From Paludibacter sp. (GTDB taxonomy: Bacteria > Bacteroidota > Bacteroidia > Bacteroidales > Paludibacteraceae): a stretch of 64,000 nucleotides of DNA. A program made the translations under genes and the position numbers. Shown here in pieces: positions 39,825 through 57,280 of the stretch (its first letter is position 1; each line of letters begins with the position of its first letter). Location of the stretch: the NCBI GenBank assembly GCA_031292575.1, contig JARLGX010000033.1:1-64000 (forward strand), in the 5' to 3' direction. The notes under the pieces were generated by a model. It saw nothing but the letters and a program-made list of their open reading frames with translations. It had not been told where the DNA came from and ran no database searches.

Positions 39825-39827
39825 GCC

Positions 39828-39918: not shown

Positions 39919-39932
39919 TAAAAATTCAAATT

Positions 39933-40688: not shown

Positions 40689-40772
40689 CTTTTCCAAAGT
40701 TTAGGACTTTGGAAAAATCGGATTAAATAAATAGTAATAATCGCGATTTAGAAATCGCGAAACCGAAGTAAG

Positions 40773-41450: not shown

Positions 41451-41452
41451 AA

Positions 41453-41568: not shown

Positions 41569-42263
41569 TATGTATTACAATAACAAAAGCCATGCTAACC
41601 TCTGAAGGCACGACAAATTTAGAAGTCTGCACCGAAATTAACGACAATGAATTACTTTGTCTGTTTGGACATTCAGGTGCCGGTAAAACCACGTTGTTGC
41701 GTATACTTGCCGGACTTACAAAACCTGACAAAGGACTAATTGTGTTTAATGGTATGGTTTGGTTCGATTCTGAAAAAAAAATAAATATTCCGCCACAACA
41801 GCGGAACGTGGGTTATATGTTTCAGGATTATGCGCTTTTTCCAAACATGACAGTAGAACATAATATCCGCTTTGCACAAAAAACAAAAGATAAAAATGAA
41901 GTCGATCAATTGATAAAACTTTTTGATTTAGAAGCATTGAAAAACCAACATCCCGCAAAACTTTCGGGCGGTCAGAAACAACGTGTGGCATTGGCCCGGG
42001 CATTAGCTGCCAAACCTAATGTATTGTTACTTGACGAACCGCTTTCGGCTCTTGATTTTGACATGCGGCTGGCATTACAACATGAAATCCGGAAAGCACA
42101 CGAACTATTAAACACTATTACTTTAATGGTCACACATGATTTGCAGGAAGTATTTCATTTGGCAACTTCGGTAGTAATACTTAAAAACGGAAATGTAATA
42201 AATCAAGGCAAACCAGTAGATGTGTTTAGTCAGGATAAAACTCCTTACCTTTATTTAAAATAG
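41505..42263 (+). CDS. modC: Molybdate ABC transporter ATP-binding protein with a repeat-derived N-terminus
   Basis: 252 residues. ATPase motifs: FGHSGAGKTTLLRILAGL (Walker A), KLSGGQKQRVALARALA (signature) and VLLLDEPLSALDFDM (Walker B), with VTHDLQEVFHLA. It lacks the C-terminal di-Mop domain of enterobacterial ModC. The first ~25 residues (DKTNFDSPLGVGGSLCITIT) are not part of the family: they are encoded by a CCCC/GGGG repeat which also provides the start region. The natural family start would be close to CITITKAML. Confidence 0.92.
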   Translation: MNIENLRDKTNFDSPLGVGGSLCITITKAMLTSEGTTNLEVCTEINDNELLCLFGHSGAGKTTLLRILAGLTKPDKGLIVFNGMVWFDSEKKINIPPQQRNVGYMFQDYALFPNMTVEHNIRFAQKTKDKNEVDQLIKLFDLEALKNQHPAKLSGGQKQRVALARALAAKPNVLLLDEPLSALDFDMRLALQHEIRKAHELLNTITLMVTHDLQEVFHLATSVVILKNGNVINQGKPVDVFSQDKTPYLYLK

Positions 42264-42351
42264 ATTTTTGAGAGTACAATATAAATTTAAGTCAACAAAT
42301 AATGATATAGACACAACTATCAATTATAAATTATTTAAAAATCAGTAAATT

Positions 42352-42558
42352 ATGGAAATCAGTGCAAGAAACAAAATCAAGGGAACCATTGAAGAAATTA
42401 CATTGGGTAGTGTAATGGCTAAAGTAAAAATCAACATTGGCAATGGAAATGTAATCAGTTCAGTAATAACTATTGAAAGTGTGACCGATTTAAAGCTTAA
42501 AGTTGGAGACGTGGTTTATGCTATCGTGAAATCAACTGAAGTTATGATAGGTAAATAA
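42352..42558 (+). CDS. Mop domain protein (molbindin)
   Basis: 68 residues, one Mop domain: MEISARNKIKGTIEEITLGS, then AKVKINIGNGNVISSVIT and VGDVVYAIVKSTEVMIGK. Molbindins bind molybdate or tungstate as hexamers and store or sense it. Here it may substitute for the sensor domains missing from ModE and ModC. Confidence 0.92.
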   Translation: MEISARNKIKGTIEEITLGSVMAKVKINIGNGNVISSVITIESVTDLKLKVGDVVYAIVKSTEVMIGK

Positions 42559-42634
42559 ATTAAACAATACACAAAAGATGAAGTCAATGGGCGTTTTTTT
42601 GTCGCTATATTATTCATTTTAAAAATAAAAGCAA

Positions 42635-43120
42635 ATGGAAGATATCATCATTAAACCAATTGGAATAATACATACACCACACACCGATGTAAAAAATATG
42701 CCAATTCAACCTATTGCTGCCGACGGCGTAAAAGGTTATATCGAACTGTTACCGGAATTTGCAGCCGGATTAAAAGACCTGGAGGGATTCTCACACATAA
42801 CGCTGATTTATCATTTTCACAAAATAACTGGTTATGAACTTACTGTAGTTCCATTTATGGATATCGAGACGCATGGTATTTTTGCAACTAAAGCCCCGAA
42901 AAGACCCAATGCCATTGGTATTTCTACTGTAAAACTAATTGGTATTGAAGGAAATGTTGTACAAATAGAACAAGTAGATATGCTCGATGGAACTCCGCTG
43001 ATTGATATAAAACCGTTCTATCCACGATATGATAATCGAGAAAACGTAAAAATCGGTTGGCTTGAAAAAAATAAGAATCTCCCCTTGGAAAAACTACGCT
43101 CCGATGAGCGGTTTAAATAA
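42635..43120 (+). CDS. TrmO/TsaA-like SAM-dependent methyltransferase family protein
   Basis: 161 residues: KPIGIIHTPHTDVKNMPIQP, DLEGFSHITLIYHFH and GIFATKAPKRPNAIGISTVK are the signature of the YaeB/TrmO fold, which in E. coli methylates N6 of t6A37 in tRNA. The usual S-P-x-R-P-N-P/x-I-G-L-S appears as APKRPNAIGIS. Members of this divergent branch are often found next to molybdenum genes, so the substrate may differ from tRNA. Unclear whether it is truly TrmO. Confidence 0.7.
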   Translation: MEDIIIKPIGIIHTPHTDVKNMPIQPIAADGVKGYIELLPEFAAGLKDLEGFSHITLIYHFHKITGYELTVVPFMDIETHGIFATKAPKRPNAIGISTVKLIGIEGNVVQIEQVDMLDGTPLIDIKPFYPRYDNRENVKIGWLEKNKNLPLEKLRSDERFK

Positions 43121-43130
43121 CATTTTTTTC

Positions 43131-43316
43131 CTACTTTTTAAGTATAATTCCCTACATGAATGTAGGATTCGTTACTTTTCCAACTATTGAAAATGCCCTA
43201 CTGTACCTTTTTTATACATCATAAAATATTTTTTTATTCCATTTGTAATCAGAACATTACAAGTCCATAAACAGGATCAAAAACGAGCACGAAATGTTAA
43301 TGGCACGATAAATGAA
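43131..43316 (+). promoter_or_regulatory. nifH regulatory region (upstream block and sigma-54-like promoter)
   Basis: At 43151-43166, CCTACAT and ATGTAGG form a palindrome with a GA centre, preceded by CCTACTTTTTAAGTATAATT (from 43130). ATTACAAGT at 43256 and TGGCACGATAAATGAA at 43301-43316 follow. The last has TGGCAC for -24 and, 10 bp beyond the GG, TGA rather than TGC for -12. The same blocks occur in the same order before nifE. I read this as enhancer sites for NifA and a sigma-54 promoter; the transcript would start ~50 bp before nifH. Confidence 0.55.
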
Positions 43317-43342
43317 TAACAGGTTGCAGGTTTAAAAGTTAA

Positions 43343-44203
<861 letters not shown>

Positions 44204-44208
44204 TTTAT

Positions 44209-44248
44209 TGGTTAACCGGTTAATCGGTTAACTGGTTAATTGGTTAGG
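44209..44248. repeat. 8-bp tandem repeat after nifH
   Basis: Five units: TGGTTAAC, CGGTTAAT, CGGTTAAC, TGGTTAAT, TGGTTAGG, beginning 5 bp after the nifH stop codon. Adjacent units can pair (GGTTAACC), giving hairpins. It may stabilise the nifH message relative to downstream genes, or vary in copy number. Confidence 0.85.
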
Positions 44249-44281
44249 AAGTAGAAAATTAATTATAAACATAGCCTTCTT

Positions 44282-44307
44282 ACTCCCCTTTAGGGGTTGG
44301 GGGTAGG
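44282..44307. repeat. CCCC/GGGG repeat arm before nifI1
   Basis: A right-hand arm (ACTCCCCTTTAGGGGTTGGG) ending 19 bp before the nifI1 start codon. No left arm is visible; the 8-bp repeat after nifH takes its place. Confidence 0.8.
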
Positions 44308-44325
44308 TATTAAAACATTTATTAT

Positions 44326-44652
44326 ATGTATTTATTAAGAGCAATTGTTCGTCCTGAGAAATCAGCTGTTGTTATGAAAGCGTTATTTGACGCAGGCTTT
44401 CCGGCAGTAACTAAATTAGCCGTTTTTGGTCGTGGTAAACAACGTGGTATCAAAGTAGGAAATGTAACATACGATGAGCTACCAAAAGATTTGCTGATGA
44501 TAACCATTCCTGCAAAAGATAAAGATTTTGTGATCGAAACTATTATGGAATCAGCTCGTACTGGAGAACAAGGCCAGTTTGGTGATGGTAAAATATTTGT
44601 TACCCAAGTAGACGAAAGCTACACCATTTCCAGTGGTAGAAAAGAAGTTTGA
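44326..44652 (+). CDS. nifI1: P-II-like nitrogenase regulator NifI1
   Basis: 108 residues, GlnB fold: MYLLRAIVRPEKSAVVMKAL, the T-loop region FGRGKQRGIKVGNVTYDELP, and GQFGDGKIFVTQVDESYTIS (GDGKIFV ATP-binding). With NifI2 it forms a complex that binds dinitrogenase and blocks electron transfer when ammonium (low 2-oxoglutarate) is present. It lacks the uridylylated Tyr context of classical GlnB. Confidence 0.93.
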   Translation: MYLLRAIVRPEKSAVVMKALFDAGFPAVTKLAVFGRGKQRGIKVGNVTYDELPKDLLMITIPAKDKDFVIETIMESARTGEQGQFGDGKIFVTQVDESYTISSGRKEV

Positions 44653-44657
44653 AAGTA

Positions 44658-44808
44658 CTCTAACCCCTAAAGGGGAAATAAAAAAGGACCCCTAACCCCT
44701 ATAAAGGGGGATAAGACTTAGTTTCTGAAATGGGGACAGGGTAGTATATAAAAAAAACTTGGTCTTGCACCCCTTTAGGGGCTGGGGGTCTCCCCTTAAA
44801 GGACCAGG
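44658..44808. repeat. Compound CCCC/GGGG element between nifI1 and nifI2
   Basis: Two left arms (ACCCCTAAAGGGGAAAT at 44663-44679 and GGACCCCTAACCCC at 44687-44700), then ACTTGGTCTTGCACCCCTTT (44758-44777) and AGGGGCTGGGGGTC (44778-44791) as the right arm plus TCTCCCCTTAAAGGACC. The pieces are nested in inverted orientation. The only DNA between the two P-II genes besides ~25 bp at the nifI2 start. Confidence 0.8.
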
Positions 44809-44832
44809 AGTCATCATTAAAAAAGAATTTAT

Positions 44833-45198
44833 ATGAAATTAATATTAGCAATGATACGAATCTCAAAAATGAGCGAGACCAAACTGGCACTTTCGGATGT
44901 TGGACTGCCATCGTTCACTGCCATGCCCGTATTGGGCAGGGGAATGGGAAAAGGTGGATTTGAAAAAGCCGCCAATTTAGATCCTGACCAACAGGAGCTC
45001 ATTGTAGAGATGCCTCGCTTAAAATCAAAACGCATGATAACACTGGTTGTAACCGACGAGAAAAAAGATCTTGCAGTTGAAACATTGATTAAAGCGAATC
45101 AAACAGGTAAAAGTGGAGATGGAAAAATTTTTGTGATTGACACAATTGATTCTATTCGGGTAAGAACAGGAGAAAAAGGCGATATCACTCTAGACTAA
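44833..45198 (+). CDS. nifI2: P-II-like nitrogenase regulator NifI2
   Basis: 121 residues, the second GlnB-type subunit: KLILAMIRISKMSETKLALS, the T-loop with the GMGKGGFEKAANLD insertion, and GKSGDGKIFVIDTIDSIRVR. NifI2 carries the T-loop that contacts the nitrogenase; with NifI1 it mediates reversible ammonia switch-off known in methanogens. Followed by nifD after 17 bp with a strong Shine-Dalgarno sequence. Confidence 0.93.
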   Translation: MKLILAMIRISKMSETKLALSDVGLPSFTAMPVLGRGMGKGGFEKAANLDPDQQELIVEMPRLKSKRMITLVVTDEKKDLAVETLIKANQTGKSGDGKIFVIDTIDSIRVRTGEKGDITLD

Positions 45199-45200
45199 TC

Positions 45201-45206
45201 AGGAGG
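45201..45206 (+). promoter_or_regulatory. Canonical Shine-Dalgarno sequence of nifD
   Basis: AGGAGG lies 9 bp before the nifD ATG at 45216. Such a strong SD is unusual, because the other genes of this window have AT-rich leaders as in other Bacteroidetes. It could raise nifD translation or be a leftover from an ancestor that uses SD. Confidence 0.75.
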
Positions 45207-45215
45207 AAAAAAACA

Positions 45216-46850
45216 ATGGAAAAGAAAATTAAAAAAGAATTGGATTTGACAAACTTCACTGACGAGGTTGTAGCTGCCTACCCTTCGAAAGTAGGGAAGA
45301 AAAGAGCAAAATCAATTGTCATAAATGATCCGGATTCAATTCCTAAAATACAGGCAAACGTACGCACCATTCCGGGTATTATCACCCAACGTGGTTGTAC
45401 ATATGCAGGATGTAAGGGTGTGGTTCTCGGTCCTACAAGGGATATTGTAAACATTACGCACGGACCAATCGGTTGTGGATATTACTCGTGGTTAACACGC
45501 CGTAACCAAACCCGTGCCGACAAACCCGAAATGGAAAACTATATTCCGTATGCCTTCTCTACCGACATGCAGGATTCGAATATCGTATTCGGTGGCGAGG
45601 AAAAGTTGAAACAGGCTATTCGCGAAGCGCACGAATTGTTCCACCCAAAAGGGATAGCTATTTTCTCTACTTGTCCGGTTGGATTGATCGGTGATGATGT
45701 TCACCGTGTAGCACGCCAAATGAAAGAAGAGTTTCCCGAAGTAAACATTTTTGGTTTCTCATGCGAAGGGTACCGTGGAGTATCACAGTCGGCCGGTCAC
45801 CACATTGCCAACAACGGGTTATACAAAAACTTAATTGGGAATAATGATAATCCTACACGCAAACATAAATATGCAGTAAACGTACTGGGTGAATACAATA
45901 TTGGTGGTGATGCTTTTGTTATCGAAGATTTATTCGAAAGAATAGGGGTTGATATTATTGCCACTATGTCGGGCAACTCTACCCTGGAGCAATTTGAAAC
46001 AGCACACACAGCCGATTTCAGTTTGGTAATGTGCCACCGCTCCATCAATTACGTTGCCGAGATGTTGGAAACATCATTCGGTATTCCATGGGCAAAAGCA
46101 AACTTTATCGGTGCTGACGCAACCGCAAAAACATTGCGCAAAGTGGGTCAATACTTTGGCGACCAGGAATTGATAGATCGTATTGAAGTAGTCATTGCCG
46201 AAGAAATGGAAACTGTAAAAACAGCTATTGCAAAAGCAAAAGCTAAGACAGAAGGCAAAACTGCCATGATGTTCGTAGGTGGTTCACGTGCCCACCACTA
46301 TCAGGAATTATTTACGGAACTTGGTATGGAAACACTTGTAGCAGGGTACGAATTCGGACACAGGGACGACTATGAAGGTCGCCGCGTAATGCCAACTATT
46401 CAGATTGATGCCGACAGTCGTAACATTGAGGAAATAACGGTTGTACCAGACCCAACACGTTTCAATCCACGCAAAAGCGAAGAAGAGCTGGCCCAACTGA
46501 AGGAAGCATTTGATATTGAATTCAACGAGTACAAAGGAATGATGACCGACATGAAAAAAGGCACATTGGTTATCGACGATTTGAGTCATTTCGAAATGGA
46601 AAAGCTCATCGAACTTTACAAACCTGATGTATTCTGTGCCGGTATTAAAGAAAAGTATGTAGTTCAAAAAATGGGAATCCCAATGAAACAGCTACACAAC
46701 TACGATAACGGCGGACCATATGCAGGTTTCAAAGGAGCTATCAACTTTTACAAGGACATAGAAATGATTGCTTGCAGCACCATTTTCAAACAAATGAAAG
46801 CTCCCTGGGAAAACGAAGCATTTGTAACTGCGGAATACGTATTTAATTAG
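45216..46850 (+). CDS. nifD: Nitrogenase molybdenum-iron protein alpha chain
   Basis: 544 residues, the long form of the anaerobe group (with an insertion of ~50 residues in the second half compared with the Azotobacter chain). P-cluster ligands: Cys61 (QRGCTYAGCKG), Cys87 (HGPIGCGYYSW) and Cys153 (STCPVGLIGDD). FeMo-cofactor ligands: Cys in LVMCHRSINYV (Azotobacter Cys275) and His494 in QLHNYDNGGPYAGF (Azotobacter His442). All essential residues are kept, so the enzyme should be functional Mo-nitrogenase. Partner of NifK, encoded after ~170 bp. Confidence 0.97.
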   Translation: MEKKIKKELDLTNFTDEVVAAYPSKVGKKRAKSIVINDPDSIPKIQANVRTIPGIITQRGCTYAGCKGVVLGPTRDIVNITHGPIGCGYYSWLTRRNQTRADKPEMENYIPYAFSTDMQDSNIVFGGEEKLKQAIREAHELFHPKGIAIFSTCPVGLIGDDVHRVARQMKEEFPEVNIFGFSCEGYRGVSQSAGHHIANNGLYKNLIGNNDNPTRKHKYAVNVLGEYNIGGDAFVIEDLFERIGVDIIATMSGNSTLEQFETAHTADFSLVMCHRSINYVAEMLETSFGIPWAKANFIGADATAKTLRKVGQYFGDQELIDRIEVVIAEEMETVKTAIAKAKAKTEGKTAMMFVGGSRAHHYQELFTELGMETLVAGYEFGHRDDYEGRRVMPTIQIDADSRNIEEITVVPDPTRFNPRKSEEELAQLKEAFDIEFNEYKGMMTDMKKGTLVIDDLSHFEMEKLIELYKPDVFCAGIKEKYVVQKMGIPMKQLHNYDNGGPYAGFKGAINFYKDIEMIACSTIFKQMKAPWENEAFVTAEYVFN

Positions 46851-47000
46851 ACCCCTAAATCCCCTAAAGGGGACTTTAAGTGCCCCCAAACCCCTAGGGG
46901 CTTGAAGACACGTATTATTTGATAATTTATCACAATAAGAATGATATTTATAAACTAAAGAGCCAAAGTAACTCAGTTCCCCTTTAGGGGTTAGGGGTGG
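46851..47000. repeat. CCCC/GGGG element between nifD and nifK
   Basis: It starts directly after the nifD stop codon: ACCCCTAAATCCCCTAAAGG (46851-46870), then CCCCCAAACCCCTAGGGG (46883-46900), AT-rich sequence, and the right arm AGTTCCCCTTTAGGGGTTAG (46975-46994). The right arm is preceded by AAAGTAACT, the same word as in the start-carrying class at nifE, nifB and nifV, but here translation begins after the element, at 47023. Confidence 0.85.
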
Positions 47001-47022
47001 TTCATAAAAAAATAAAAACATT

Positions 47023-48402
47023 ATGTTACTTAGACATACCACTGCATTAGAAATAGACAGGAAGGCACTGACCATTAACCCGGCCAAAACCTGCCAACCT
47101 GTAGGCGCAATGTTTGCAGCATTGGGTATCCACGGATGCCTGCCACATAGCCACGGTTCACAAGGGTGTTGCTCTTATCACCGAAGTGCTTTGTCGCGCC
47201 ACTTTCGCGAACCAATCATGGCCGGAACAAGCTCATTCTCCGAAGGTTCATCCGTATTTGGCGGGTCGGCTAACTTAGTTCAGGCTATCGACACCATGTT
47301 CACGGTGTATAAACCCGAAGTTATTGCCGTACACACTACTTGTTTGTCGGAAACGATTGGTGATGACCTTGTTCAAATCGTATCAAAAGCCAACGAGGAT
47401 AAACTCATTCCCGAAGGGAAATATGTGATTCATTGCAATACGCCAAGTTATGTTGGAACTCACGTAACCGGATACTCCAATCAGGTTGCTGCTTTTGTGA
47501 AATTTTTCTCAACGGCAACACCAAAGAAACGTAACGTTATCAATATAGCTGCCGGATGGATGGAACCATCGGATATGCGTGAAATCAAACGATTGACAAC
47601 GGTTATGGAAGCCCGTACAATTATGTTTCCGGATATGACCGACGTGCTGGATGCTCCATTGGATGGACATTACAAAATGTATCCAACAGGTGGAACAACC
47701 ATCGAAGACATGAAACTGACCGGCGACAGCAAATTTACATTAGGTCTTGGACAATCGTGCACCGAAGATGCTTGTATTAAACTCGACAATAAATGTAAAG
47801 TAAAATTCGAGATGTTGGATATCCCGATTGGTTTTAAAGCTACCGACCGCTTTCTGATGTCGTTGAGCCGCCATGCCAATGTGCCGATTCCTCAAAGCCT
47901 GAGTGATGAACGTGGCCGCTTGATCGACCTGATTTCAGATAGTTCGAAATACCTGTACGGAAAACGTGTTGCACTGTGGGGCGATCCTGACACACTGATT
48001 CCTTTGGTAGAGTTTTTAGTAAGCATGGATATGAAACCGGTGTATGTTGTTACAGGGACTCCAAGTAAGTATTTCGATGCTAAAATGCCGGAGTTACTGA
48101 AAGATATACCTGAAGCAAAATTCAAGAGCGGTGAATTGGCCGATATGTTCCGCATGCACCAATGGATCAAACAAGAAGGGGTAGATTTATTAATCGGAAA
48201 TACATACGGTAAATACATTGCACGCGACGAAAACACGCCTTTTGTTCGCTTCGGGTTCCCCATTGCCGACCGTCCCGGACACAATTACTTTGCTAAAACA
48301 GGTTACGAAGGTGGAGCCAATTTGGTAAAACAAATCATGGATGCATTCCTTGACCATTACGATCGCACTTGTTTGGAAGAAAAAGTCGAATTCCAATTGT
48401 AA
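47023..48402 (+). CDS. nifK: Nitrogenase molybdenum-iron protein beta chain
   Basis: 459 residues, the short form without the N-terminal extension of Azotobacter NifK. P-cluster ligands: Cys24 (AKTCQPVGAM), Cys49 (HGSQGCCSYH) and the Cys in HTTCLSETIGDD; Ser in the region STSFSEGSSVFGG-like is present (GTSSFSEGSSVFGGS). It completes the alpha2beta2 MoFe protein. The transcript probably ends at the hairpins at 48406 and 48689. Confidence 0.97.
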   Translation: MLLRHTTALEIDRKALTINPAKTCQPVGAMFAALGIHGCLPHSHGSQGCCSYHRSALSRHFREPIMAGTSSFSEGSSVFGGSANLVQAIDTMFTVYKPEVIAVHTTCLSETIGDDLVQIVSKANEDKLIPEGKYVIHCNTPSYVGTHVTGYSNQVAAFVKFFSTATPKKRNVINIAAGWMEPSDMREIKRLTTVMEARTIMFPDMTDVLDAPLDGHYKMYPTGGTTIEDMKLTGDSKFTLGLGQSCTEDACIKLDNKCKVKFEMLDIPIGFKATDRFLMSLSRHANVPIPQSLSDERGRLIDLISDSSKYLYGKRVALWGDPDTLIPLVEFLVSMDMKPVYVVTGTPSKYFDAKMPELLKDIPEAKFKSGELADMFRMHQWIKQEGVDLLIGNTYGKYIARDENTPFVRFGFPIADRPGHNYFAKTGYEGGANLVKQIMDAFLDHYDRTCLEEKVEFQL

Positions 48403-48405
48403 TTC

Positions 48406-48473
48406 AAAAACCCGGGGACGTTGAACATAGTTGTTAGTTAACTTTTCTCAGTAATAAAACGTCCTTGGGTTTT
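48406..48473 (+). terminator. Long hairpin after nifK
   Basis: AAAACCCGGGGACGTT (48406-48421 region) pairs with AACGTCCTTGGGTTTT (48458-48473) around a ~36-nt loop. It begins right after the nifK stop and ends in a TTTT tract, which fits a terminator or a 3'-end stabiliser for nifHDK mRNA. Confidence 0.5.
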
Positions 48474-48581
48474 CATTTATATTGTGAATATGTTCTACTG
48501 GTTTATACAACAAGGTTTTTATAGATAATATCAAACGATAAAAAGCACCTGTAAAAAAGTAATTTAATTCTATTAGTCCAA

Positions 48582-48623
48582 ACGACACATGACGCCAGTC
48601 GATAAGACGCATGACACCAGTCG
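48582..48623. repeat. Direct repeat in the nifK-nifE interval
   Basis: CATGACGCCAGTCG (48588-48601) and CATGACACCAGTCG (48610-48623), with the context GACACATGAC/GACGCATGAC, form two imperfect direct copies 22 bp apart. The spacing equals that of the 22-bp array further downstream. Confidence 0.6.
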
Positions 48624-48651
48624 GAGCGACTATTATTTTTCATCATATATC

Positions 48652-48659
48652 TAAATTTG
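48652..48659 (+). promoter_or_regulatory. Weak -7-like element before the 48689 terminator
   Basis: TAAATTTG fits TAnnTTTG; a start ~7 bp further would give an RNA of ~60 nt ending at 48725. No -33 TTG is seen, so this is only suggestive of a small RNA. Confidence 0.2.
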
Positions 48660-48688
48660 TCCTATCTTTTATTACTGAAAAAAGTCCG

Positions 48689-48725
48689 GCTACGGCTTCA
48701 CCACAAGTGAAGCCGTAGCTTTTTT
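48689..48725 (+). terminator. Strong rho-independent terminator upstream of nifE
   Basis: GCTACGGCTTCAC pairs perfectly with GTGAAGCCGTAGC around CACAA, followed by TTTTTT. It separates the nifH-nifK transcript from nifE-nifV. Confidence 0.92.
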
Positions 48726-48790
48726 GATAGATTTATAATTGATGATACTTCAAGACAAGGCATCAAACCTACCGTATAAGACATATTAAA

Positions 48791-48878
48791 GTGGCGTATA
48801 ATAATGATGGCAGTACAGTATAGTACTGATGGATGTATCGTATAATACCGATGATAGTATCGTATAATATAAAACGCC
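48791..48878. repeat. Four tandem 22-bp repeats upstream of nifE
   Basis: Units start at 48791, 48813, 48835 and 48857. The common core is GTAT-CGTATAATA-TGATG: unit 1 has GTGGCGTATAATAATGATGG, unit 2 GTACAGTATAGTACTGATGG, unit 3 GTATCGTATAATACCGATGA, unit 4 GTATCGTATAATATAAAACG. Units 2 and 3 are near-palindromic (GTACAG/TAGTAC; ATCGTAT/ATACCGAT). A period of 22 bp is about two helical turns, so a protein could bind all copies on one face. They lie ~20 bp before the conserved block that nifE shares with nifH. Confidence 0.8.
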
Positions 48879-48900
48879 CTTAAATTCCAGCCTTACTTCT

Positions 48901-49088
48901 TCCTACATTTTAAGTATAATTACCTACCTAAATGTATGATTTCGACAAGTCATACAACAGCAAAAACTCACGTCCCTCCTACGCTATATCATAAAAAATA
49001 AAAACACACAACATTCATTACAAGTAGATTACATAGCACTATCAACGCTGAAAATTGCAACTAATTTGTTAATGGCACGATAAATGAA
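48901..49088 (+). promoter_or_regulatory. nifE regulatory region (upstream block and sigma-54-like promoter)
   Basis: TCCTACATTTTAAGTATAAT followed by TACCTAC and AATGTATG (48901-48938) matches the block at 43129-43166 before nifH, with the second palindrome half slightly altered. ATTACAAGT (49017-49025) and TGGCACGATAAATGAA (49073-49088) also recur, the latter identical at all 16 positions to the nifH copy. Only 15 bp lie between this promoter and the start of the repeat that carries the nifE start codon. Confidence 0.55.
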
Positions 49089-49103
49089 TAAAGGGGAAAG
49101 ACA

Positions 49104-49224
49104 ACCCCTAACCCCTAAAGGGGAAAAGAGATATTACAACCAATTATTGAAAAATTGAATTATGAGTAATATAAAAAACAGAACAGACGGAAGTAACTTC
49201 AGTTCCCCTTTAGGGGCTAGGGGT
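49104..49224. repeat. 121-bp inverted-repeat element carrying the nifE start codon (class A)
   Basis: Left arm at 49104-49125 and right arm at 49203-49224, 22 bp each and complementary with one mismatch; each arm holds CCCCTAAAGGGG or its complement. The 77-bp loop has ATATTACAACCAATTATTG, GAATTATGAGTAAT (start at 49162) and GGAAGTAACT. Loops at nifB, nifV and the GNAT gene are alike in sequence and length. Coding continues through the right arm, giving SSPLGARG. Confidence 0.92.
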
Positions 49225-50547
49225 ATATTATTAGATGATAGACAAAAGCAAGTATCGATAGCCGGCGCCAATGAGCGCACGATTGATTGCAACAAAGCAA
49301 GCCTGGCTGGAAGTGTTAGCCAACGAGCTTGTGTCTTTTGCGGATCGCGGGTGGTGCTTTACCCCATAGTGGATGCTCTTCATATTATTCATGGACCGAT
49401 AGGTTGTGCTGCCTATACCTGGGACATACGAGGTTCACTCTCGTCGGGACCCGAATTGCACCGGTTGAGTTATAGTACAGATTTGCAGGAACGGGATGTA
49501 ATTTTTGGCGGAGAAAAGAAACTCTACGCATCCATTATTGAACTTATCGAGCTGCATAATCCTAAAGCTGCCTTTATTTATACTACCTGTATTGTTGGTG
49601 TTATTGGCGACGATGTAGAACAAATTTGCCGTACGGTAGAAAAAGAAAAAGGCATCCCCATCATCCCTGTTCAGGCACCCGGATTTCAGGGTTCCAAAAA
49701 AGACGGATACAAAGTGGCTTGTGAAGCCATCTTTACCCTGGTCGGAACAAAAAGCAAACCTTTCACACCTGCTAAAAGTATCAACATTCTGGGCGATTTC
49801 AACCTTGCCGGTGAACTTTGGATACTATTGGAATACTACAAAAAAATGGGCGTTCATGTCAATGCCACCATTACAGGCGATGGCCGCGTAGATGATATTT
49901 GCAATGCACATAATGCCGCGCTAAACGTGGTTCAATGTTCGGGCTCAATGAACTATCTGGCTAAGATGATGAAAGACGAATATGGAATTCCTTCGATGCG
50001 GGTTTCGTATTTTGGAATTGAAGATATGAGTGATGCGCTGTACGATGTAGCCCGCTTTTTCAAGGACGATGATATGATGGACAAAGCCCGTGAGTTGGTA
50101 AAAGAAGAATTTACAAGACTTATTCCGCAACTGGCCTGGTATAAGGAACGGTTAACAGGGAAAAAAGCCGCCATTTATGTAGGCGGGGCATTTAAAGCCA
50201 TATCATTGGTAAAAGCATTACGATTGATTGGCGTTCAATCGGTGATTGTGGGTTCGCAAACTGGCACAACCGAAGATTATGAATTGATAAAACAGCTTTG
50301 CGACGAAGGCACCATCATTGTTGATGACTCGAACCCTGTGGAGCTTTCGCATTTCGTGAAAGAAAAGCAAGCTGACATTTTTATCGGGGGTGTAAAAGAG
50401 CGCCCCATTGCTCATAAAATAGGACTCGGATTCTGCGACCACAATCACGAACGCAAAGAACCATTGGCAGGTTACGAAGGCATGTTGAACTTTGCCAAAG
50501 AAATTTATGCAACAGCCATGAGCCCGGTGTGGAAGTTTACAAAGTAG
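49162..50547 (+). CDS. nifE: Nitrogenase cofactor scaffold protein NifE with a repeat-derived N-terminus
   Basis: 461 residues. Cluster ligands as in the family: RACVFCGSRVVLYP, HGPIGCAAYTWDIRG and YTTCIVGVIGDDVEQ; the C-terminal CDHNHERKEPLAGYEG (His near the cofactor). With NifN it forms the scaffold on which NifB-co is converted to FeMo-co. Residues 1-~25 (NRTDGSNFSSPLGARGILL) are foreign to NifE and come from the repeat element; the family sequence begins at about DRQKQVSIAGAN. No in-frame start after the repeat is convincing, so the hybrid N-terminus is probably real. Confidence 0.95.
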   Translation: MSNIKNRTDGSNFSSPLGARGILLDDRQKQVSIAGANERTIDCNKASLAGSVSQRACVFCGSRVVLYPIVDALHIIHGPIGCAAYTWDIRGSLSSGPELHRLSYSTDLQERDVIFGGEKKLYASIIELIELHNPKAAFIYTTCIVGVIGDDVEQICRTVEKEKGIPIIPVQAPGFQGSKKDGYKVACEAIFTLVGTKSKPFTPAKSINILGDFNLAGELWILLEYYKKMGVHVNATITGDGRVDDICNAHNAALNVVQCSGSMNYLAKMMKDEYGIPSMRVSYFGIEDMSDALYDVARFFKDDDMMDKARELVKEEFTRLIPQLAWYKERLTGKKAAIYVGGAFKAISLVKALRLIGVQSVIVGSQTGTTEDYELIKQLCDEGTIIVDDSNPVELSHFVKEKQADIFIGGVKERPIAHKIGLGFCDHNHERKEPLAGYEGMLNFAKEIYATAMSPVWKFTK

Positions 50548-50548
50548 A

Positions 50549-50598
50549 GGCGCATTGCATGCGCCTAATAACTAAAAAAGCATGCGCCTAATAATTAG
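50549..50598. repeat. 18-bp direct repeat with GGCGCA palindrome
   Basis: GCATGCGCCTAATAACTA (50557-50574) and GCATGCGCCTAATAATTA (50580-50597) differ at one base. The first copy is part of a palindrome, GGCGCA-TTGCA-TGCGCC. It follows the nifE stop codon by two bases and precedes the class B element before nifN. Confidence 0.75.
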
Positions 50599-50604
50599 AG
50601 AAAC

Positions 50605-50709
50605 CGCTCCTAAATCCCATAAAGGGGACTTTAAGACGCAGTTTCTAAAAGAAAATTGTATTGAATAAAACAAACTTGGTCTTTAAGCCCCTTTAGGGGT
50701 TTGGGGCAG
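50605..50709. repeat. CCCC/GGGG element (class B) before nifN
   Basis: Left arm with CTCCTAAATCCCATAAAGGG and GACTTTAAGAC; right arm TTGGTCTTTAAGCCCC, TTTAGGGGTTTGGGGC. The sequences GACTTTAAGAC and GTCTTTAAG lengthen the stem compared with class A. The loop is about 40 bp and has no start codon; nifN starts 18 bp behind. Confidence 0.85.
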
Positions 50710-50727
50710 TAGAAAAAAACAATCATC

Positions 50728-52035
50728 ATGATCGAAGCAAAAACATATACATCCACCCGCAACTCCTGCAAACTGTGTGCTCCATTAGGTGCATCGATGG
50801 TGTTCAAGGGAATCGAGGGTTGCGTGCCATTAATTCATGGAAGTCAGGGTTGTGCCACCTACATTCGCCGATACATGATTAGTCATTACAAAGAACCGGT
50901 TGATATTGCTTCGAGTAATTTCAGCGAAGAGTCGACAGTTTTTGGCGGAAGCAAAAATTTCATCACCGGAATTGAAAATATAGTAAAACAATACAAACCA
51001 AATGTCATTGGTATAGCTTCAACATGCTTATCGGAAACGATTGGTGAAGATATTCCGGGACATATACGACATTATAAAGAATCTCATGAAGCCGATGGAA
51101 GTGTCATACCTACTTTCATCCACACTTCAACCCCCAGCTATAGCGGCAGCCACGCCGAAGGTTTCCATAACACTGTCCTGGCTGCCGTGAAAGCTATTGC
51201 AAAACATAAAAAAACCGTTGAGACACTAAACATCTTTCCGGGTATGGTTTCTCCTGCCGACATTCGCTATCTGAAAGAATTGCTGGAAGACTTTGGTATG
51301 AAGTACGTGCTTTTCCCCGATTTCAGTGAAACACTCGACAACGAATACACGGCGGAATATCAGTTGATACCAACCGGCGGAACACCAATGATTGACATAG
51401 AACATATTGGTGATTCTAAAGCAACCATTGAATTTGGAACTTCGTTCAACAAAACGGTAAACCGTACAAAAGATAGCGGCTCACTGCAAACTGCAGGCGA
51501 ATGGCTCCAATCGACATATTACATTAGAAACCACCAAATGCAGTTACCAATAGGTATAGAAACTTCCGATAAATTTATTAAAACGTTGGAAGAAATAAGT
51601 GGAAAACCAATGCCCGAAAAGCACCGGAAAGAACGTGGACGCTTAGTAGATGCATATGTAGATGCTCATAAATATGTATTTGGAAAAAAAGCATTGATTT
51701 ACGGTGAAGAAGATTTTGTAACTGCCATGGCCGATTGGTTGAAAGAAATTGGAATAGAAGCCTTCTGGATTAAAGGTGCCGACTTTGAAACATTACGCGA
51801 AAAGGCTGATGAGTTTAAACCGGACTTTTTATTGGGAAACAGCAAAGGCTATTACATTGCCCGCGAACTCAAAATACCGTTGGTACGGGTAGGTTTTCCT
51901 ATTCACGATCGCTTCGGTGCAACACGCATACATCACATTGGATACCGTGGTACTCAGGAACTTTTTGACCTTGTAGTGAATGCATTGATAGATTACAAAC
52001 AAGAAAATTCACCGATTGGATATAAATATTTATAA
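50728..52035 (+). CDS. nifN: Nitrogenase cofactor scaffold protein NifN
   Basis: 435 residues; NifK-like: RNSCKLCAPLGASMVFKGIE with the cysteines, GSQGCATYIRRYMISHYKEP, SNFSEESTVFGGSKNF and STCLSETIGEDIP. Partner of NifE in FeMo-co assembly. It starts normally (IEAKTYTSTRNSC), 18 bp after a repeat element, without repeat-derived residues. Confidence 0.95.
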   Translation: MIEAKTYTSTRNSCKLCAPLGASMVFKGIEGCVPLIHGSQGCATYIRRYMISHYKEPVDIASSNFSEESTVFGGSKNFITGIENIVKQYKPNVIGIASTCLSETIGEDIPGHIRHYKESHEADGSVIPTFIHTSTPSYSGSHAEGFHNTVLAAVKAIAKHKKTVETLNIFPGMVSPADIRYLKELLEDFGMKYVLFPDFSETLDNEYTAEYQLIPTGGTPMIDIEHIGDSKATIEFGTSFNKTVNRTKDSGSLQTAGEWLQSTYYIRNHQMQLPIGIETSDKFIKTLEEISGKPMPEKHRKERGRLVDAYVDAHKYVFGKKALIYGEEDFVTAMADWLKEIGIEAFWIKGADFETLREKADEFKPDFLLGNSKGYYIARELKIPLVRVGFPIHDRFGATRIHHIGYRGTQELFDLVVNALIDYKQENSPIGYKYL

Positions 52036-52045
52036 CAGAAGACCT

Positions 52046-52167
52046 ACCCCTAACCCCTAAAGGGGAACAAGAAATATTACTAACGATTATTAAACGAGTA
52101 GATTATGAGTAATTTAAAAAATACAGGAGACACAAGTAACTCCAATTCCCCTTTAGGGGTTAGGGGT
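52046..52167. repeat. 122-bp inverted-repeat element carrying the nifB start codon (class A)
   Basis: The arms 52046-52067 and 52146-52167 are perfect 22-bp inverted repeats; total length 122 bp, loop 78 bp. The start ATG at 52105 is 59 bp from the left end, almost the same offset as in the nifE (58), nifV (60) and GNAT (58) copies. Coding continues out through the right arm (SNSPLGVRGLQ). Confidence 0.93.
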
Positions 52168-53421
52168 CTACAAGCACATCCTTGTTTCAACGAAGAAGCA
52201 AAGCATACCAATGCACGTGTTCACCTGCCAGTAGCTCCAAAATGCAACATACAGTGTAATTATTGTAATCGCAAATACGACTGCGTCAACGAAAGTCGTC
52301 CGGGTGTAACTTCATCTGTGTTAGCACCATTCCAGGCAGTTGATTATTTGAAAGACTTGGACGGTCGTATTGAAAATCTGGCAGTAATTGGCATCGCGGG
52401 TCCCGGTGATCCATTTGCAAACCCCGAAGAAACCCTTGAAACTATGCGTCGTGTAAGTGCTGAGTTTCCCGATAAAATCTTCTGTCTTTCCACCAACGGA
52501 TTGAATTTAGAACCATATATTGATGAAATTGCCAAGATGAACGTTACTCACGTAACCATCACTATCAATGCCATTGACCCAAAAATAACAGCCCAAATAT
52601 ATAAATGGGTTCGCTATAACAAAAAGGTGTATCGTGGCGAAGAAGGTGCAGCTATCCTGTTGGAACGCCAACTGGCCTGCATTCCTAAATTGAAAGCTTG
52701 CGGAATTACTGTAAAGATCAATTCCATTATCATCCCGGGAATCAACGAGAATCATATCCCTGAAGTGGCACGAGTATGCGCCGAACTCGGAGCTGATGTG
52801 ATCAACTGTATTCCATTGATACCTACTGCTGAAACTCCGTTTGAATCGGTGGAAAAGCCGGATACAAAAATGATTTTCAAAACCCGCACATTGTGTTCGG
52901 ATCATTTGAAGATAATGAGCCATTGCGCCCGCTGTCGTGCCGATGCAGCAGGATTATTGGGACAGGATTTAAGCGAAACCCATGCTTTGCTTAAAGAATA
53001 TTCATCGCGTGCCGAAGAAATGGACACCACCAGCCGCCCTTATGTAGCAGTTGCTACCAACGAAGGGTTGTTAGTGAACCTACACCTGGGCGAAGCACGT
53101 AACGTATATATTTTCGAACAAACGAAAAATGGATTCAAAAACGTAGAAGTTCGTGATATGCCACCTAAAGGAAAAGGCGATGAACGCTGGTTGAATATGG
53201 CCCGTGACTTAAAAGATTGTCGAGCAATTTTGGTTAGCGGCGTAGGCGAAAACCCCAAAGCAATGCTTAAAGGTTGTGGAATACATGTGGTAGAAATGAC
53301 CGGACTTATCGACGAAGGATTAGAAGGCATTTACAATAACAAAGTGATTCGCTCTATTGCCAAACCCGATGCATTCAAATGTGGTACAAGCTGCAAAGGT
53401 GAAGCAAAAGGATGCGGGTAA
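52105..53421 (+). CDS. nifB: FeMo-cofactor biosynthesis radical SAM protein NifB, repeat-derived N-terminus
   Basis: 438 residues. Radical SAM motif Cys47-x3-Cys51-x2-Cys54 (KCNIQCNYCNRKYDC), then GIAGPGDPFANPEETLETMR, and a C-terminal NifX-like domain from ~residue 320 (SRPYVAVATNEGLLVNLHLG). It makes the 8Fe-9S-C NifB-co precursor. The family sequence starts at about HPCFNEEAKHTNARVHLPVA; residues 1-~23 (GDTSNSNSPLGVRGLQA) come from the repeat. Ends with a Cys-rich FKCGTSCKGEAKGCG tail. Confidence 0.96.
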   Translation: MSNLKNTGDTSNSNSPLGVRGLQAHPCFNEEAKHTNARVHLPVAPKCNIQCNYCNRKYDCVNESRPGVTSSVLAPFQAVDYLKDLDGRIENLAVIGIAGPGDPFANPEETLETMRRVSAEFPDKIFCLSTNGLNLEPYIDEIAKMNVTHVTITINAIDPKITAQIYKWVRYNKKVYRGEEGAAILLERQLACIPKLKACGITVKINSIIIPGINENHIPEVARVCAELGADVINCIPLIPTAETPFESVEKPDTKMIFKTRTLCSDHLKIMSHCARCRADAAGLLGQDLSETHALLKEYSSRAEEMDTTSRPYVAVATNEGLLVNLHLGEARNVYIFEQTKNGFKNVEVRDMPPKGKGDERWLNMARDLKDCRAILVSGVGENPKAMLKGCGIHVVEMTGLIDEGLEGIYNNKVIRSIAKPDAFKCGTSCKGEAKGCG

Positions 53422-53519
53422 TAACCCCAAACCCCTAAAGGGGCTTAAAGACAATATTTACCACACAATTATAAAAACAGAGACGAAGTGACTTAGTTCC
53501 ACTTTAGGGGCTAGGGTCG
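53422..53519. repeat. CCCC/GGGG element before the ferredoxin gene
   Basis: ACCCCAAACCCCTAAAGGGG (53424-53443) starts 2 bp after the nifB stop; the right arm GTTCCACTTTAGGGGCTAGG (53496-53515) has one worn C-run. The preceding word GAAGTGACTTA recalls the GAAGTAACT of class A. No start codon in its loop. Confidence 0.8.
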
Positions 53520-53536
53520 TTATTAAAATTACTCGT

Positions 53537-53845
53537 ATGAAAAAGCCAGATTATCACATTTTAGTATGCAACTCGTTTCGTGTTGCAGGAGATGCTCAAG
53601 GAGCATGTAACAAAAAAGGGGCAAGTTCATTGCTTCAGTATATTTCAGAAGAAGCTTCAGACCGCGGCTTGGACGTGGCAGTCAGCACCACCGCTTGCCT
53701 GAACGTATGTTCACAAGGTCCGGTAATGGTCATTCATCCAAATAATTTTTGGTATGGTGGGGTAGAATCGGAAGCAGTCATCGATGAAATCTTGGATTCA
53801 TTGGAAGACGGTGAACTTTGCGAGAAATATTCCATTGCGGACTAA
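53537..53845 (+). CDS. Thioredoxin-like [2Fe-2S] ferredoxin
   Basis: 102 residues: HILVCNSFRVAGDAQGACNK (Cys11 and Cys24) and TTACLNVCSQGPVMVIHP (Cys54 and Cys58), the C-x12-C / C-x3-C ligand set of thioredoxin-fold 2Fe-2S ferredoxins. Such ferredoxins occur in nif operons, where they may supply electrons for cofactor assembly or protect the enzyme. Its position between nifB and nifV points to a role in FeMo-co synthesis. Confidence 0.9.
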   Translation: MKKPDYHILVCNSFRVAGDAQGACNKKGASSLLQYISEEASDRGLDVAVSTTACLNVCSQGPVMVIHPNNFWYGGVESEAVIDEILDSLEDGELCEKYSIAD

Positions 53846-53853
53846 TAAAAACA

Positions 53854-54003
53854 ACCCCTAACCCCTAAAGGGGAACAAAAAAATATTACAACTGATTATT
53901 GAAAATTTGAATTATGAACAATAGAAGGAATACATCAGACGAAAGTAACTTTGTTCCCCTTCAGGGGCTAGGGGTAGATTCCCCCTTAGGGAATGGGGGT
54001 TCT
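53854..54003. repeat. 122-bp element carrying the nifV start codon, plus an extra arm (class A)
   Basis: Left arm 53854-53875 and right arm 53954-53975 with CCCCTTCAGGGG; start ATG at 53914. A second right-arm-like piece, TTCCCCCTTAGGGAATGGGG (53979-53998), is inserted directly behind it. Both are translated in frame, giving VPLQGLG and then SPLGNGG. Confidence 0.9.
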
Positions 54004-55146
54004 CTTTACCCATACTTTATTGACACTACATTACGCGATGGTGAGCAATCACCGGGAGTTGTATTTTCTCTGACTGAGAAGATTCACATTGCGGAATTAT
54101 TAGAAAGTGCTGGCGTTCCCGAAATTGAAATCGGTACACCGGCCATGGGTGAAACAGAAGTTCATGACATTCGCACAATTTGCGAAATGCATTTCAGCTT
54201 TAAAACGCTTTCATGGTGTCGTGCAACTAAAAATGATATCCTTGCAGCCAAGTCGGCTGGAACAAACGGTGTACATATTTCATTCCCTGTTTCACCAATA
54301 TTAATGAAAGCAATGGGCAAAGATCCAAACTGGGTTTTTCAACAATTGGAAGAACTCATAGAATTTGCTTACCCCATGTTCGACTATGTAACCATCGGAG
54401 CTCAGGATGCTTCGCGAGCTGAAATTAAATTCTTGAAAGAATTTGTTTCTGCAGCCAGTGCTTTTGGTGCTTCACGTGTCCGGCTAGCCGATACGGTTGG
54501 TTTATTAAATCCAATCACAACCTTTGAAATGGTTTCGTCCATTCGAAGTGTAGAAAAATATATTCCAATAGAAATTCATGCACACAATGATTTGGGAATG
54601 GCAACAGCAAATACATTGGCCGCTTATATGGCCGGAGCAAATTGCCTCAGCACTACCATAAACGGTTTGGGCGAACGGGCAGGAAATGCTGCGATGGAAG
54701 AAGTAGCAATGGCTTTAGAACTTAGCGCGGGTATCAAAAGCACGCTGCGTACCGAGAGTTTTTCGGAACTAAGTGCGTATGTTGCACAGGTATCAAATCG
54801 CGCACTCAGCGAAAGCAAACCAATTACCGGAAGCATGGTGCTGACACACGAAAGTGGTATTCATACAAACCTGTTGTCCAAAAACCGGAGTACCTATCAA
54901 CTTATTTCGGCCGAGAAAATAGGGAAAACCGAGCAGAGATTCTTGATTGGCAAACATAGTGGCAAAGCAACCATTGTATATTATCTGACAGAAGCAAATT
55001 TACCTTTTACGGATGAAGGCTGCACTTTGCTGCTACAAAAAGTAAAAGAATGTGCCGATGCATTAAAGCGTACAATAACAAAAGATGAATTGCTGGATTT
55101 GTACGTAGAAGTTTTTATCCGAAAAAATCAATTCCAATTTAATTGA
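53914..55146 (+). CDS. nifV: Homocitrate synthase NifV with a repeat-derived N-terminus
   Basis: 410 residues. The catalytic TIM barrel begins at FIDTTLRDGEQSPGVVFS (residue ~33; RDGEQ binds 2-oxoglutarate and metal); further motifs are VRLADTVGLLNP, EIHAHNDLGMATAN and NGLGERAGNAAMEE. NifV condenses acetyl-CoA with 2-oxoglutarate to R-homocitrate, the organic ligand of FeMo-co. The first ~32 residues are encoded by two consecutive repeat pieces and have no counterpart in typical NifV. Confidence 0.95.
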   Translation: MNNRRNTSDESNFVPLQGLGVDSPLGNGGSLYPYFIDTTLRDGEQSPGVVFSLTEKIHIAELLESAGVPEIEIGTPAMGETEVHDIRTICEMHFSFKTLSWCRATKNDILAAKSAGTNGVHISFPVSPILMKAMGKDPNWVFQQLEELIEFAYPMFDYVTIGAQDASRAEIKFLKEFVSAASAFGASRVRLADTVGLLNPITTFEMVSSIRSVEKYIPIEIHAHNDLGMATANTLAAYMAGANCLSTTINGLGERAGNAAMEEVAMALELSAGIKSTLRTESFSELSAYVAQVSNRALSESKPITGSMVLTHESGIHTNLLSKNRSTYQLISAEKIGKTEQRFLIGKHSGKATIVYYLTEANLPFTDEGCTLLLQKVKECADALKRTITKDELLDLYVEVFIRKNQFQFN

Positions 55147-55203
55147 TTCATCAACGGCTTTATTGTAAATAGAAAATAAACAAATAGTAATAAATTAAAA
55201 ATT

Positions 55204-55632
55204 ATGGCAACAGAAAAATTTATCCCCGATGAAGACATGCGCAAACAAGCAGTAAGCAGTTTGCATTATGCCAATGGTTTTTATTCCACCTTACGGAAGA
55301 GTCTGGACAATGAGAACTCACGTTTCGATAATGATTTACGATATAATTTTGCTGTAATAAGTATCGAAAAATACTTTGTGGCTCTTCTTGCCCGGTACGA
55401 TTGGAATGCATCGCACCATATGCCCATTGCTCTGTATAATGAAGCTTTAACATTTGATTCGGAATTGACGGATTCAATGAAACAAACGGCAATTTTAGCC
55501 GGAAAATTTGAAGCAATCTGTTCGCTCGAAGGATTTGGATACAGAACTCCTTCTTTTGAAGAGCTGGAAGCAATGGCAACAGGAATAAACGAAATAAAAA
55601 TGTTGGTAGAAAAACGGATAGCAGAAATATAA
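55204..55632 (+). CDS. Unrecognised helical protein, possibly HEPN-like
   Basis: 142 residues, all-helical and acidic. Segments DMRKQAVSSLHYANGFYSTL, FDNDLRYNFAVISIEKYFVA and LLARYDWNASHHMP suggest a four-helix bundle; Arg64 and His71 form an R-x6-H arrangement, like that of HEPN domains, many of which are RNases or nucleotidyltransferase partners. That is a pattern-level guess. It follows nifV after 57 bp and shares no repeat, so it may belong to the nif transcript. Function unknown. Confidence 0.55.
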   Translation: MATEKFIPDEDMRKQAVSSLHYANGFYSTLRKSLDNENSRFDNDLRYNFAVISIEKYFVALLARYDWNASHHMPIALYNEALTFDSELTDSMKQTAILAGKFEAICSLEGFGYRTPSFEELEAMATGINEIKMLVEKRIAEI

Positions 55633-55638
55633 AGACTC

Positions 55639-55998
55639 ATGAATGCAAATAAAATAAAAGCAATGAAACAACTAAAAGTAACCAAAGTTCCATTTTACGA
55701 TTTAGAAATTGTTCGCTTTCTAATTAAAGATGGTTGTGATTTAGATATTGCTTATGCTTATGAAGATCTGGTTTTTTCAGAACACGGACTTTTTATACTT
55801 CAGTTTATCGGGGAATCGAGTCAAAGCTTTGCTTGTTGGTTTAATAAGGATTGCATTGAAAATGACCGAATAAACATATTTAAATCACTAACTAAAACTG
55901 CAACACTCAATGGGTTGGAATTAGAGTATAAAGGTAAATTCGAAATATCTCAAAAAGAAGATTGCGACGAAATTGATATACATTTTGAAGAAGTATAA
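55639..55998 (+). CDS. Unrecognised protein downstream of nifV
   Basis: 119 residues, 6 bp behind the helical gene, so probably co-translated. Start may be Met1 or Met9 (55663, MKQLKVTKVPFYDLEIVRF). Contains DGCDLDIAYAYEDLVFSEHG and FACWFNKDCIEND, with an acidic C-terminus (EDCDEIDIHFEEV). No family is recognised, no membrane segment is seen. It converges on the Nif11-like gene, with 9 bp between the two stop codons. Confidence 0.55.
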   Translation: MNANKIKAMKQLKVTKVPFYDLEIVRFLIKDGCDLDIAYAYEDLVFSEHGLFILQFIGESSQSFACWFNKDCIENDRINIFKSLTKTATLNGLELEYKGKFEISQKEDCDEIDIHFEEV

Positions 55999-56007
55999 AC
56001 TACCCTA

Positions 56008-56247
56008 TTATCTAAATAAAGTAAACCATGCTTTTACTTCTTTTACTCTTCCGGCTTGTTCGTACGTTTGGCATTTAAGTTCCAATACATTAAATGCATC
56101 GGCAATTTCATCCGGCGTAAAACCCATTTTTTGCTTTGCCATGTTTTCTAATAATTCAACTTGCGATTTATTCGCGTAGCATGATTTCCGGAAGTCACTG
56201 TCGGAATCTACCTTTGAAATAAAATCTATTGCGTTTTGTAAGCTCAT
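56008..56247 (-). CDS. Nif11 domain protein
   Basis: 79 residues with the Nif11 pattern: SLQNAIDFISKVDSDSDFRK at the N-terminus, then MAKQKMGFTPDEIADAFNVL (the G-F-x-x-T/F-x-x-E/D-I/L motif). Nif11-type proteins are encoded in nif clusters of several diazotrophs, and the same fold serves as leader of some ribosomal peptides. The C-terminal end (QTYEQAGRVKEVKAWFTLF) is not a core peptide with modification sites. Role in nitrogen fixation unknown. Confidence 0.72.
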   Translation of the reverse strand: MSLQNAIDFISKVDSDSDFRKSCYANKSQVELLENMAKQKMGFTPDEIADAFNVLELKCQTYEQAGRVKEVKAWFTLFR

Positions 56248-56268
56248 GATTTATATTTTCTATTTTTT

Positions 56269-56679: not shown

Positions 56680-56696
56680 AATTTCAACTGATTAAT

Positions 56697-57279: not shown

Positions 57280-57280
57280 C

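Follow-up and report, generated by a model that had tools for sequence, protein, structure and literature searches.

We analysed a 64,000-nucleotide stretch of Paludibacter DNA, referred to below as the window, in which the start codons of unrelated genes lie inside copies of a palindromic repeat. The genome it comes from, our own genome or G000 in what follows, comprises 3.46 Mb in 40 contigs and belongs to the same genus as Paludibacter propionicigenes (G016). The repeat copies and the genes that start inside them are listed by window position.

39824 to 39916, plus strand: copy without start codon, between ORFs 38532-39824 and 39933-40688
41455 to 41564, plus strand: fifth start-supplying element, at an ABC transporter ATP-binding protein gene; ATG 41505; MNIENLRDKTNFDSPLGVGG
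41505 to 42263, plus strand: ABC transporter ATP-binding protein gene, start inside the element; PF00005, all listed specific NCBIfam models below their cut-offs
44656 to 44789, plus strand: copy without start codon, between ORFs 44326-44652 and 44833-45198
46853 to 46998, plus strand: copy without start codon, between ORFs 45216-46850 and 47023-48402
49104 to 49224, plus strand: full nifE element; ATG 49162 inside; encodes MSNIKNRTDGSNFSSPLGARG; counterpart in the near relative G048 has a native start
49162 to 50547, plus strand: nifE, start inside the element; NCBIfam TIGR01283 above cut-off, match begins at residue 34
52046 to 52167, plus strand: full nifB element; ATG 52105 inside; encodes MSNLKNTGDTSNSNSPLGVRG; G048 counterpart has a native start
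52105 to 53421, plus strand: nifB, start inside the element; NCBIfam TIGR01290 above cut-off, match begins at residue 22
53424 to 53518, plus strand: copy without start codon, between nifB (end 53421) and the ORF at 53537
53854 to 53975, plus strand: full element at a nifV-like gene; ATG 53914 inside, VPLQGLG frame; second arm-like stretch to ~54000
53914 to 55146, plus strand: nifV-like homocitrate synthase gene, start inside the element; TIGR02660 436 bits, below the cut-off of 463
56697 to 57221, minus strand: GNAT acetyltransferase gene, start inside the element; PF00583
57159 to 57279, minus strand: full element at the GNAT acetyltransferase gene; ATG 57221 inside; encodes MSNMKIIAAESKFSSPSGVES

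The four copies reported in a preliminary description of this DNA (nifE, nifB, nifV and GNAT) were all present, with lengths of 121, 122, 122 and 121 bp, arms of 22 bp, loops of 77, 78, 78 and 77 bp, and the ATG at a near constant place (element positions 59, 60, 61 and 59). Some details needed correction. The ATG context said to be shared, GAATTATGAGTAAT, is exact in nifE and GNAT, but nifB has GATTATGAGTAAT. An SPLG-type peptide had been ascribed to every copy; at nifV the arm is read as VPLQGLG, and SPLGNGG comes from the second arm-like stretch just downstream, while the actual peptide at GNAT is SPSGVES. The start-supplying copy at 41455-41564 had been overlooked, and the window also holds arm copies without a start codon. 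The core palindrome, with at most two mismatches, gave 46 matches in the window against 2.1 expected from shuffles, both counted on two strands so that many palindromes are scored twice.

The element consists of an AT-rich loop between two 22-bp inverted arms. The left arm carries TAA in two of the three frames, and the loop often has an A-rich start region with an ATG and without a Shine-Dalgarno sequence. In the consensus right arm the SPLG frame is open, and the VPLQ frame is open where TAG became CAG or the like. Other repeats were seen in the window. A 90-bp-period repeat in five overlapping copies (33678-34272) lies inside ORF 33369-34895, an 8-bp tandem repeat of the TGGCACAT type (2856-3023) adjoins a single palindrome arm, and two identical 79-bp copies 109 bp apart (12844-13031) are putatively tRNA-gene-like by look. 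Elsewhere in G000, eight copies with similar arms and a different, non-coding loop lie ~135 bp apart in two runs (contig 14:239935-241456; L045:7936-9457).

A covariance model was built from 23 start-supplying copies and used to search genomes. It found at least 77 places in our own genome down to 31 bits and at least ~64 in P. propionicigenes, of which 61 were analysed; these counts are lower bounds, as 150 first-look candidates were scored per genome. The places in the two genomes span 54-161 bp. Across the set of 40 relatives, the model had matches in 23 of the 24 genus genomes (our own included, two weak) and in 3 of the 16 outside the genus, all weaker. G025, of the same order and another family, gave 35 weak matches (best E 2e-8) and may hold a related repeat family. 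An exact paired-palindrome pattern matched 6 of 395 sampled Bacteroidota genomes, with 45 matches in our own, the sole member of its genus in the sample, and at most two in any other. One pattern sought in named genomes matched 38 stretches titled Paludibacter, Paludibacteraceae or uncultured Bacteroidales, the exceptions being one Bacteroidota, one Bacteroidetes and two Porphyromonas MAG labels; Rickettsia was absent among these 38, all of which are Paludibacter or other Bacteroidota MAGs. Loop likeness was 0.60 for copies less than 20 kb apart and 0.55 otherwise (p 0.008), and the nif-region copies stand out. The family is best read as a genus-restricted palindromic repeat, MITE/REPIN-like in build.

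The preliminary description proposed that the repeat carries the start codon of unrelated neighbouring genes, and the genome-wide search bears this out. An ORF of at least 100 aa leaves the element from a start inside it at 29 of the 77 places in our own genome and at 13 of 61 in P. propionicigenes; a simple script that calls ATG ORFs of this minimum length underlies the start and stop classes, and two of the 29 are doubtful members (C28:79370, with an unlike loop, and C15:101, with a weak score). Because the model was trained on start-supplying copies, an arm-only scan that used no trained model gives a fairer count: in the fetched regions around arm hits of our own genome, a start was supplied at 24 of 54 sites. 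The genes concerned are unrelated to each other and include nifE, nifB, nifV-like, trpE-like, trpG/pabA-type, trpB, trpF, rsmH, murQ and cysN genes, as well as genes for a PAPS-reductase-domain protein, ABC transporter parts, glycoside hydrolases, a peptidase, the GNAT protein and others. The reading frame of one ABC ATPase (L051:15981-17006, minus strand) begins in an element, and further into the same protein an additional stretch resembling an arm, DKSNPVPLQGLGV, looks like an in-frame insertion within the gene.

Open leaders nearly always run into a gene. In the arm-only scan 24 of 25 open ATG leaders were fused to a gene (both strands counted), and among copies found by the model 44 of 49 leaders open in the direction of the gene were fused in frame, 42 of them by script and two by eye where the ORF caller had begun further upstream. 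The chance of 44 such fusions is P ~3e-16 if one frame in three would serve and 2e-4 if two in three would. The preliminary description had named random placement relative to start codons as a refuting condition, and these counts do not refute the idea. The arm is read in the SPLG frame in 27 of the 42 start-supplying copies and in the VPLQ frame, which needs a change at the arm TAG, in 15; none uses the third frame, as expected from the stop that the consensus arm carries there. The idea of a portable initiation module stands insofar as the start codon lies inside the repeat, but not in the sense of a dedicated module, as 96 of 138 classified places supply no start codon. Among the 123 placed copies, the downstream start lies inside the element in 42 and 1-30 bp beyond it in 65 more.

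We compared the nif loci with those of relatives, assigning nifB, nifE, trpB and trpF by eye from the sequences. The nifB gene of G048 keeps its native ATG and reads MEMTEERKQAHPCF, whereas our own reads ...SPLGVRG-L-QAHPCF and has no ATG, GTG or TTG for 50 codons past the element. The flanks match almost base for base, with the element replacing the native ATG. NifE begins MGHILDDRQKQ from a native ATG in G048 and runs ...SPLGARG-ILLDDRQKQ in our own genome, where no start follows for 42 codons past the element; the flanks are somewhat more divergent than at nifB, and the native ATG has been replaced likewise. In both empty-site comparisons the native start codons are lost on our own side. 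At the level of sequence, the repeat has therefore replaced the native start of both genes.

Across the genus, the element forms the N-terminus of NifE in 5 of 17 readable loci and a native start is used in the other 12, one of which (G007) has the element just upstream of the kept ATG. For nifB, 2 of 19 readable loci have a full element as the start and one has a decayed element; in the remaining loci the leader is another palindrome, or palindromes lie ahead of an ATG that has been kept, or there are none. Leaders of other palindrome types at nifB were seen in L134 (G044), L132 (G052) and L138 (G012). The nifE of P. propionicigenes likewise starts inside the element, and the available part of one report states that the type strain reduces acetylene (PMC4356463), which makes the fusion compatible with function.

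The trp genes gave a similar picture with more loci. A leader of this kind supplies the start of trpB in 17 of 28 readable genus loci, and a native start is used in 11. Both arms belong to this family, at 15 or more of 22 matches, in 14 of the 17; in G001 the left arm is lost and the start kept, and G021 and G022 have other palindromes. For trpF, a leader of this general kind was found in 9 of 26 readable loci plus one doubtful, with both arms of this family only in three (G000, G051 and G002); several trpF leaders, like some of trpB and nifB, carry other palindrome types. Such types at trpB include L223-L225 (G017, G041 and G002), and SPLERVGE, SLPLEGLGE and C5/G5-arm leaders were seen at nifB, trpB or trpF. 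Several repeat families may thus share the habit. The trpG and trpB family models begin at residues 23-29, where the leader ends. A quick TrpB tree implied at least seven state changes, three forced by its starred branches; with most branches weak and little clustering of the leader label (as low in 74 of 500 shuffles), the tree does not separate gain from loss.

Genes upstream of the repeat can have their stop codons inside it, a role that the preliminary description, right as to starts, had overlooked. In 44 of the 123 placed copies the element contains the end of the upstream gene, and in 50 more that end lies at most 10 bp away. Of the 44 inside stops, 31 were traced: 19 fall at element position 13, among them 15 where the left arm gives the protein end TPNP-stop. 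A stop and a start occur together at 17 of 126 places. The comparison of supplied stops with relatives covers the trpC-trpF junction, where trpC was named by position and motif: our own upstream protein ends ...EKLKNP-stop and the native ones end slightly earlier, e.g. ...SNLQ-stop and ...NGLK-stop. Both neighbours of the element point the same way in 116 of 121 cases, compared with 361 of 469 gene pairs taken as controls from the same fetched regions (P ~1e-8); this test covers the places other than two tandem arrays (eight copies in our own genome and four in P. propionicigenes), four spanned copies and one at a contig end. The inside stops, the in-frame fusions, the co-directional placement and the presence or absence among relatives can be read directly from the DNA.

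These results are probably best explained by a MITE/REPIN-like repeat of this genus that is tolerated at operon junctions since it carries stops and a start region. It would settle in the spacers between genes of one operon, and an insertion overlapping the junction would take over the upstream stop, commonly as ...TPNP-stop, and the downstream start, with neither gene silenced. Such insertions would be tolerated because the left arm has stops, the loop has a start region and the right arm has open frames. The native start would be gone at insertion or decay afterwards, after which the host would depend on the repeat; copies with a kept native ATG look like the first stage. We infer that the element is mobile and mostly selfish, and that insertion came before decay of the native start. 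Several observations count against this reading: the three Y1 transposase genes of our own genome are not flanked by these arms, target-site duplications are absent, and at nifB and nifE native codons have gone along with the insertion, a loss for which simple transposition does not account.

A rival reading is a REPIN/BIME proper, that is, paired REPs moved by a RAYT transposase. It fits the two inverted palindromic units with a short spacer, the absence of a target-site duplication (at 138 places, direct repeats of 2-9 bases were no more frequent in the flanks than after shuffling) and the presence of three Y1_Tnp (Y1 transposase) genes in our own genome, at C15, C1 and C37. However, none of these genes is flanked by the arms of the repeat. 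The genes at C15 and C1 are bordered by palindromes of other kinds; the closest arm of the CCCCTAAAGGGG type is ~3 kb from the C15 gene, a degenerate single arm lies ~0.4 kb from the C1 gene, and no CCCCTAAAGGGG-type arm was found within the 8-kb stretch around the C37 gene. We regard this reading as possible, if rather unlikely. The side palindromes of the Y1 (REP-type) transposase genes at L046:6484-6825 and L035:4142-4483 differ, e.g. CAACCCGCAGGGTTGA.

It is also conceivable, though doubtful, that the repeat is a mobile operon-punctuation cassette, which would target operon junctions, end the upstream protein with TPNP-stop, begin the downstream one with M...SPLG and be kept because it standardises or insulates downstream translation. 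Whole pathways (nif and trp) would then run on repeat-borne start signals. The restriction to operon junctions and the near absence of unfused ATG leaders could reflect a selected function.

An operon-punctuation device under selection, one that separates cistrons, sets downstream translation by its hairpin or start region and has been spread and homogenised for that use, would account for the co-directional placement and flush fit, the repeated occupation of the same junction at trpB and the scarcity of unfused open leaders. It would also agree with the strong predicted hairpin. As the preliminary description supposed, the arms can pair in RNA: they are paired in the predicted minimum-free-energy fold of all five start-supplying window copies (z -3.9 to -7.4), which is expected of any such palindrome. 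The further suggestion of a regulatory hairpin gained no support. In the 23 start-supplying copies the structure clearly exceeds slid versions, as a palindrome must, but the arms showed no covariation beyond shuffles (48 to 169 of 500 shuffles reached each of five measures). AUG accessibility was not significantly different from that of 160 control starts (0.455 versus 0.436, p 0.57), nor was that of the start region (0.574 versus 0.541, p 0.10). No Rfam family reached its gathering score in window positions 39000-59000; among known RNAs, three microRNA-hairpin matches were rejected, each being below its gathering score.

The leader peptide likewise speaks against selection for such a device. 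Of the 42 leaders, 13 share a length of 63 nt; their pairwise differences were 371/387/379 over the three codon positions, without codon-position bias, and single-base codon differences gave an N/S of 3.9 against 5.8 expected. Constraint on the peptide would be at most weak, and the leader appears to be a passenger peptide, because the differences spread equally over codon positions. In addition, the 11 readable trpB loci without a leader do without the proposed device, and the G001 trpB leader lost its left arm and retained its start. We consider a selected punctuation device unlikely. Least of all do we favour a prediction artefact, in which translation would begin past the repeat and leave the leader as untranslated 5' sequence. 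Room for this exists in the 11 of 42 start-supplying copies with some ATG, GTG or TTG at most 5 codons past the element; 4 of the 42 have an in-frame ATG no more than 3 codons on, and in these the native start might still work. Against it, 17 of 42 have no such codon across 15 codons, NifB, NifE and TrpB orthologues place the conserved core before any other start codon, and the in-frame fusion of 44 of 49 open leaders is improbable by chance under either frame assumption, which makes the artefact highly improbable. The preliminary description had allowed for a start downstream of the repeat; at nifB, nifE, trpB and trpG the empty sites argue against this, as does the finding that no in-frame start precedes the core. 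Translation in the cell presumably begins at the element ATG.

With the tolerated MITE/REPIN-like repeat as the preferred reading, one repeat family holds both punctuation marks of translation at dozens of junctions, whereas ORF-fused repeats were previously known singly. The junctions affected include those of nifE, nifB, nifV-like, trpE-like, trpG, trpB, trpF and rsmH genes, and relatives have native starts at the genes checked. The family offers a natural experiment on how start codons get replaced and shows repeated DNA living inside compact operons. N-terminal annotation and tagging in Paludibacter need care.

Parts of this picture resemble known systems. The Paludibacter repeat is short and has terminal inverted repeats, its 22-bp arms, like a MITE, and in-frame fusions of MITE ORFs are described in the available part of a published account (PMC10969869). 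Unlike a MITE, it has no target-site duplication and no known parent transposase; part of the target is missing instead of duplicated. REPINs and BIMEs are characterised as inverted pairs of short palindromes that are extragenic and of high copy number (PMC3116915, PMC2817692). The Paludibacter repeat shares the two inverted palindromic units, the short spacer and the high copy number, but no Y1 gene of our own genome is flanked by the same palindrome, as would be expected with a RAYT, and the loop is long and coding in many copies.

Rickettsia palindromic elements (RPE) are described in excerpts as ~150 bp long, with a conserved reading frame, and incorporated into unrelated proteins (PMC10969869, PMC2635572). 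The Paludibacter repeat is likewise a palindromic repeat read in frame into unrelated proteins. RPEs, however, are described as insertions into genomic ORFs, whereas the Paludibacter repeat occupies the junctions of genes, with stop and start codons inside it; gene ends account for most copies, and one arm-like stretch is internal (in the ABC ATPase at L051:15981-17006). Host and sequence also differ, the RPE being set apart here by description. Enterobacterial repeats of ERIC/IRU type are fused to N- or C-terminal ORF parts in 24 annotated genes according to the part of the report available (PMC2759123, Delihas 2007). The Paludibacter repeat differs in affecting core metabolic genes that have native starts in relatives and in following an operon-junction rule. 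In-frame fusion of palindromic repeats is thus known; a repeat that systematically takes over both stops and starts where operon genes meet is apparently new, as the titles and abstract openings listed in searches of open-access literature contained nothing on a repeat supplying start or stop codons in Bacteroidota.
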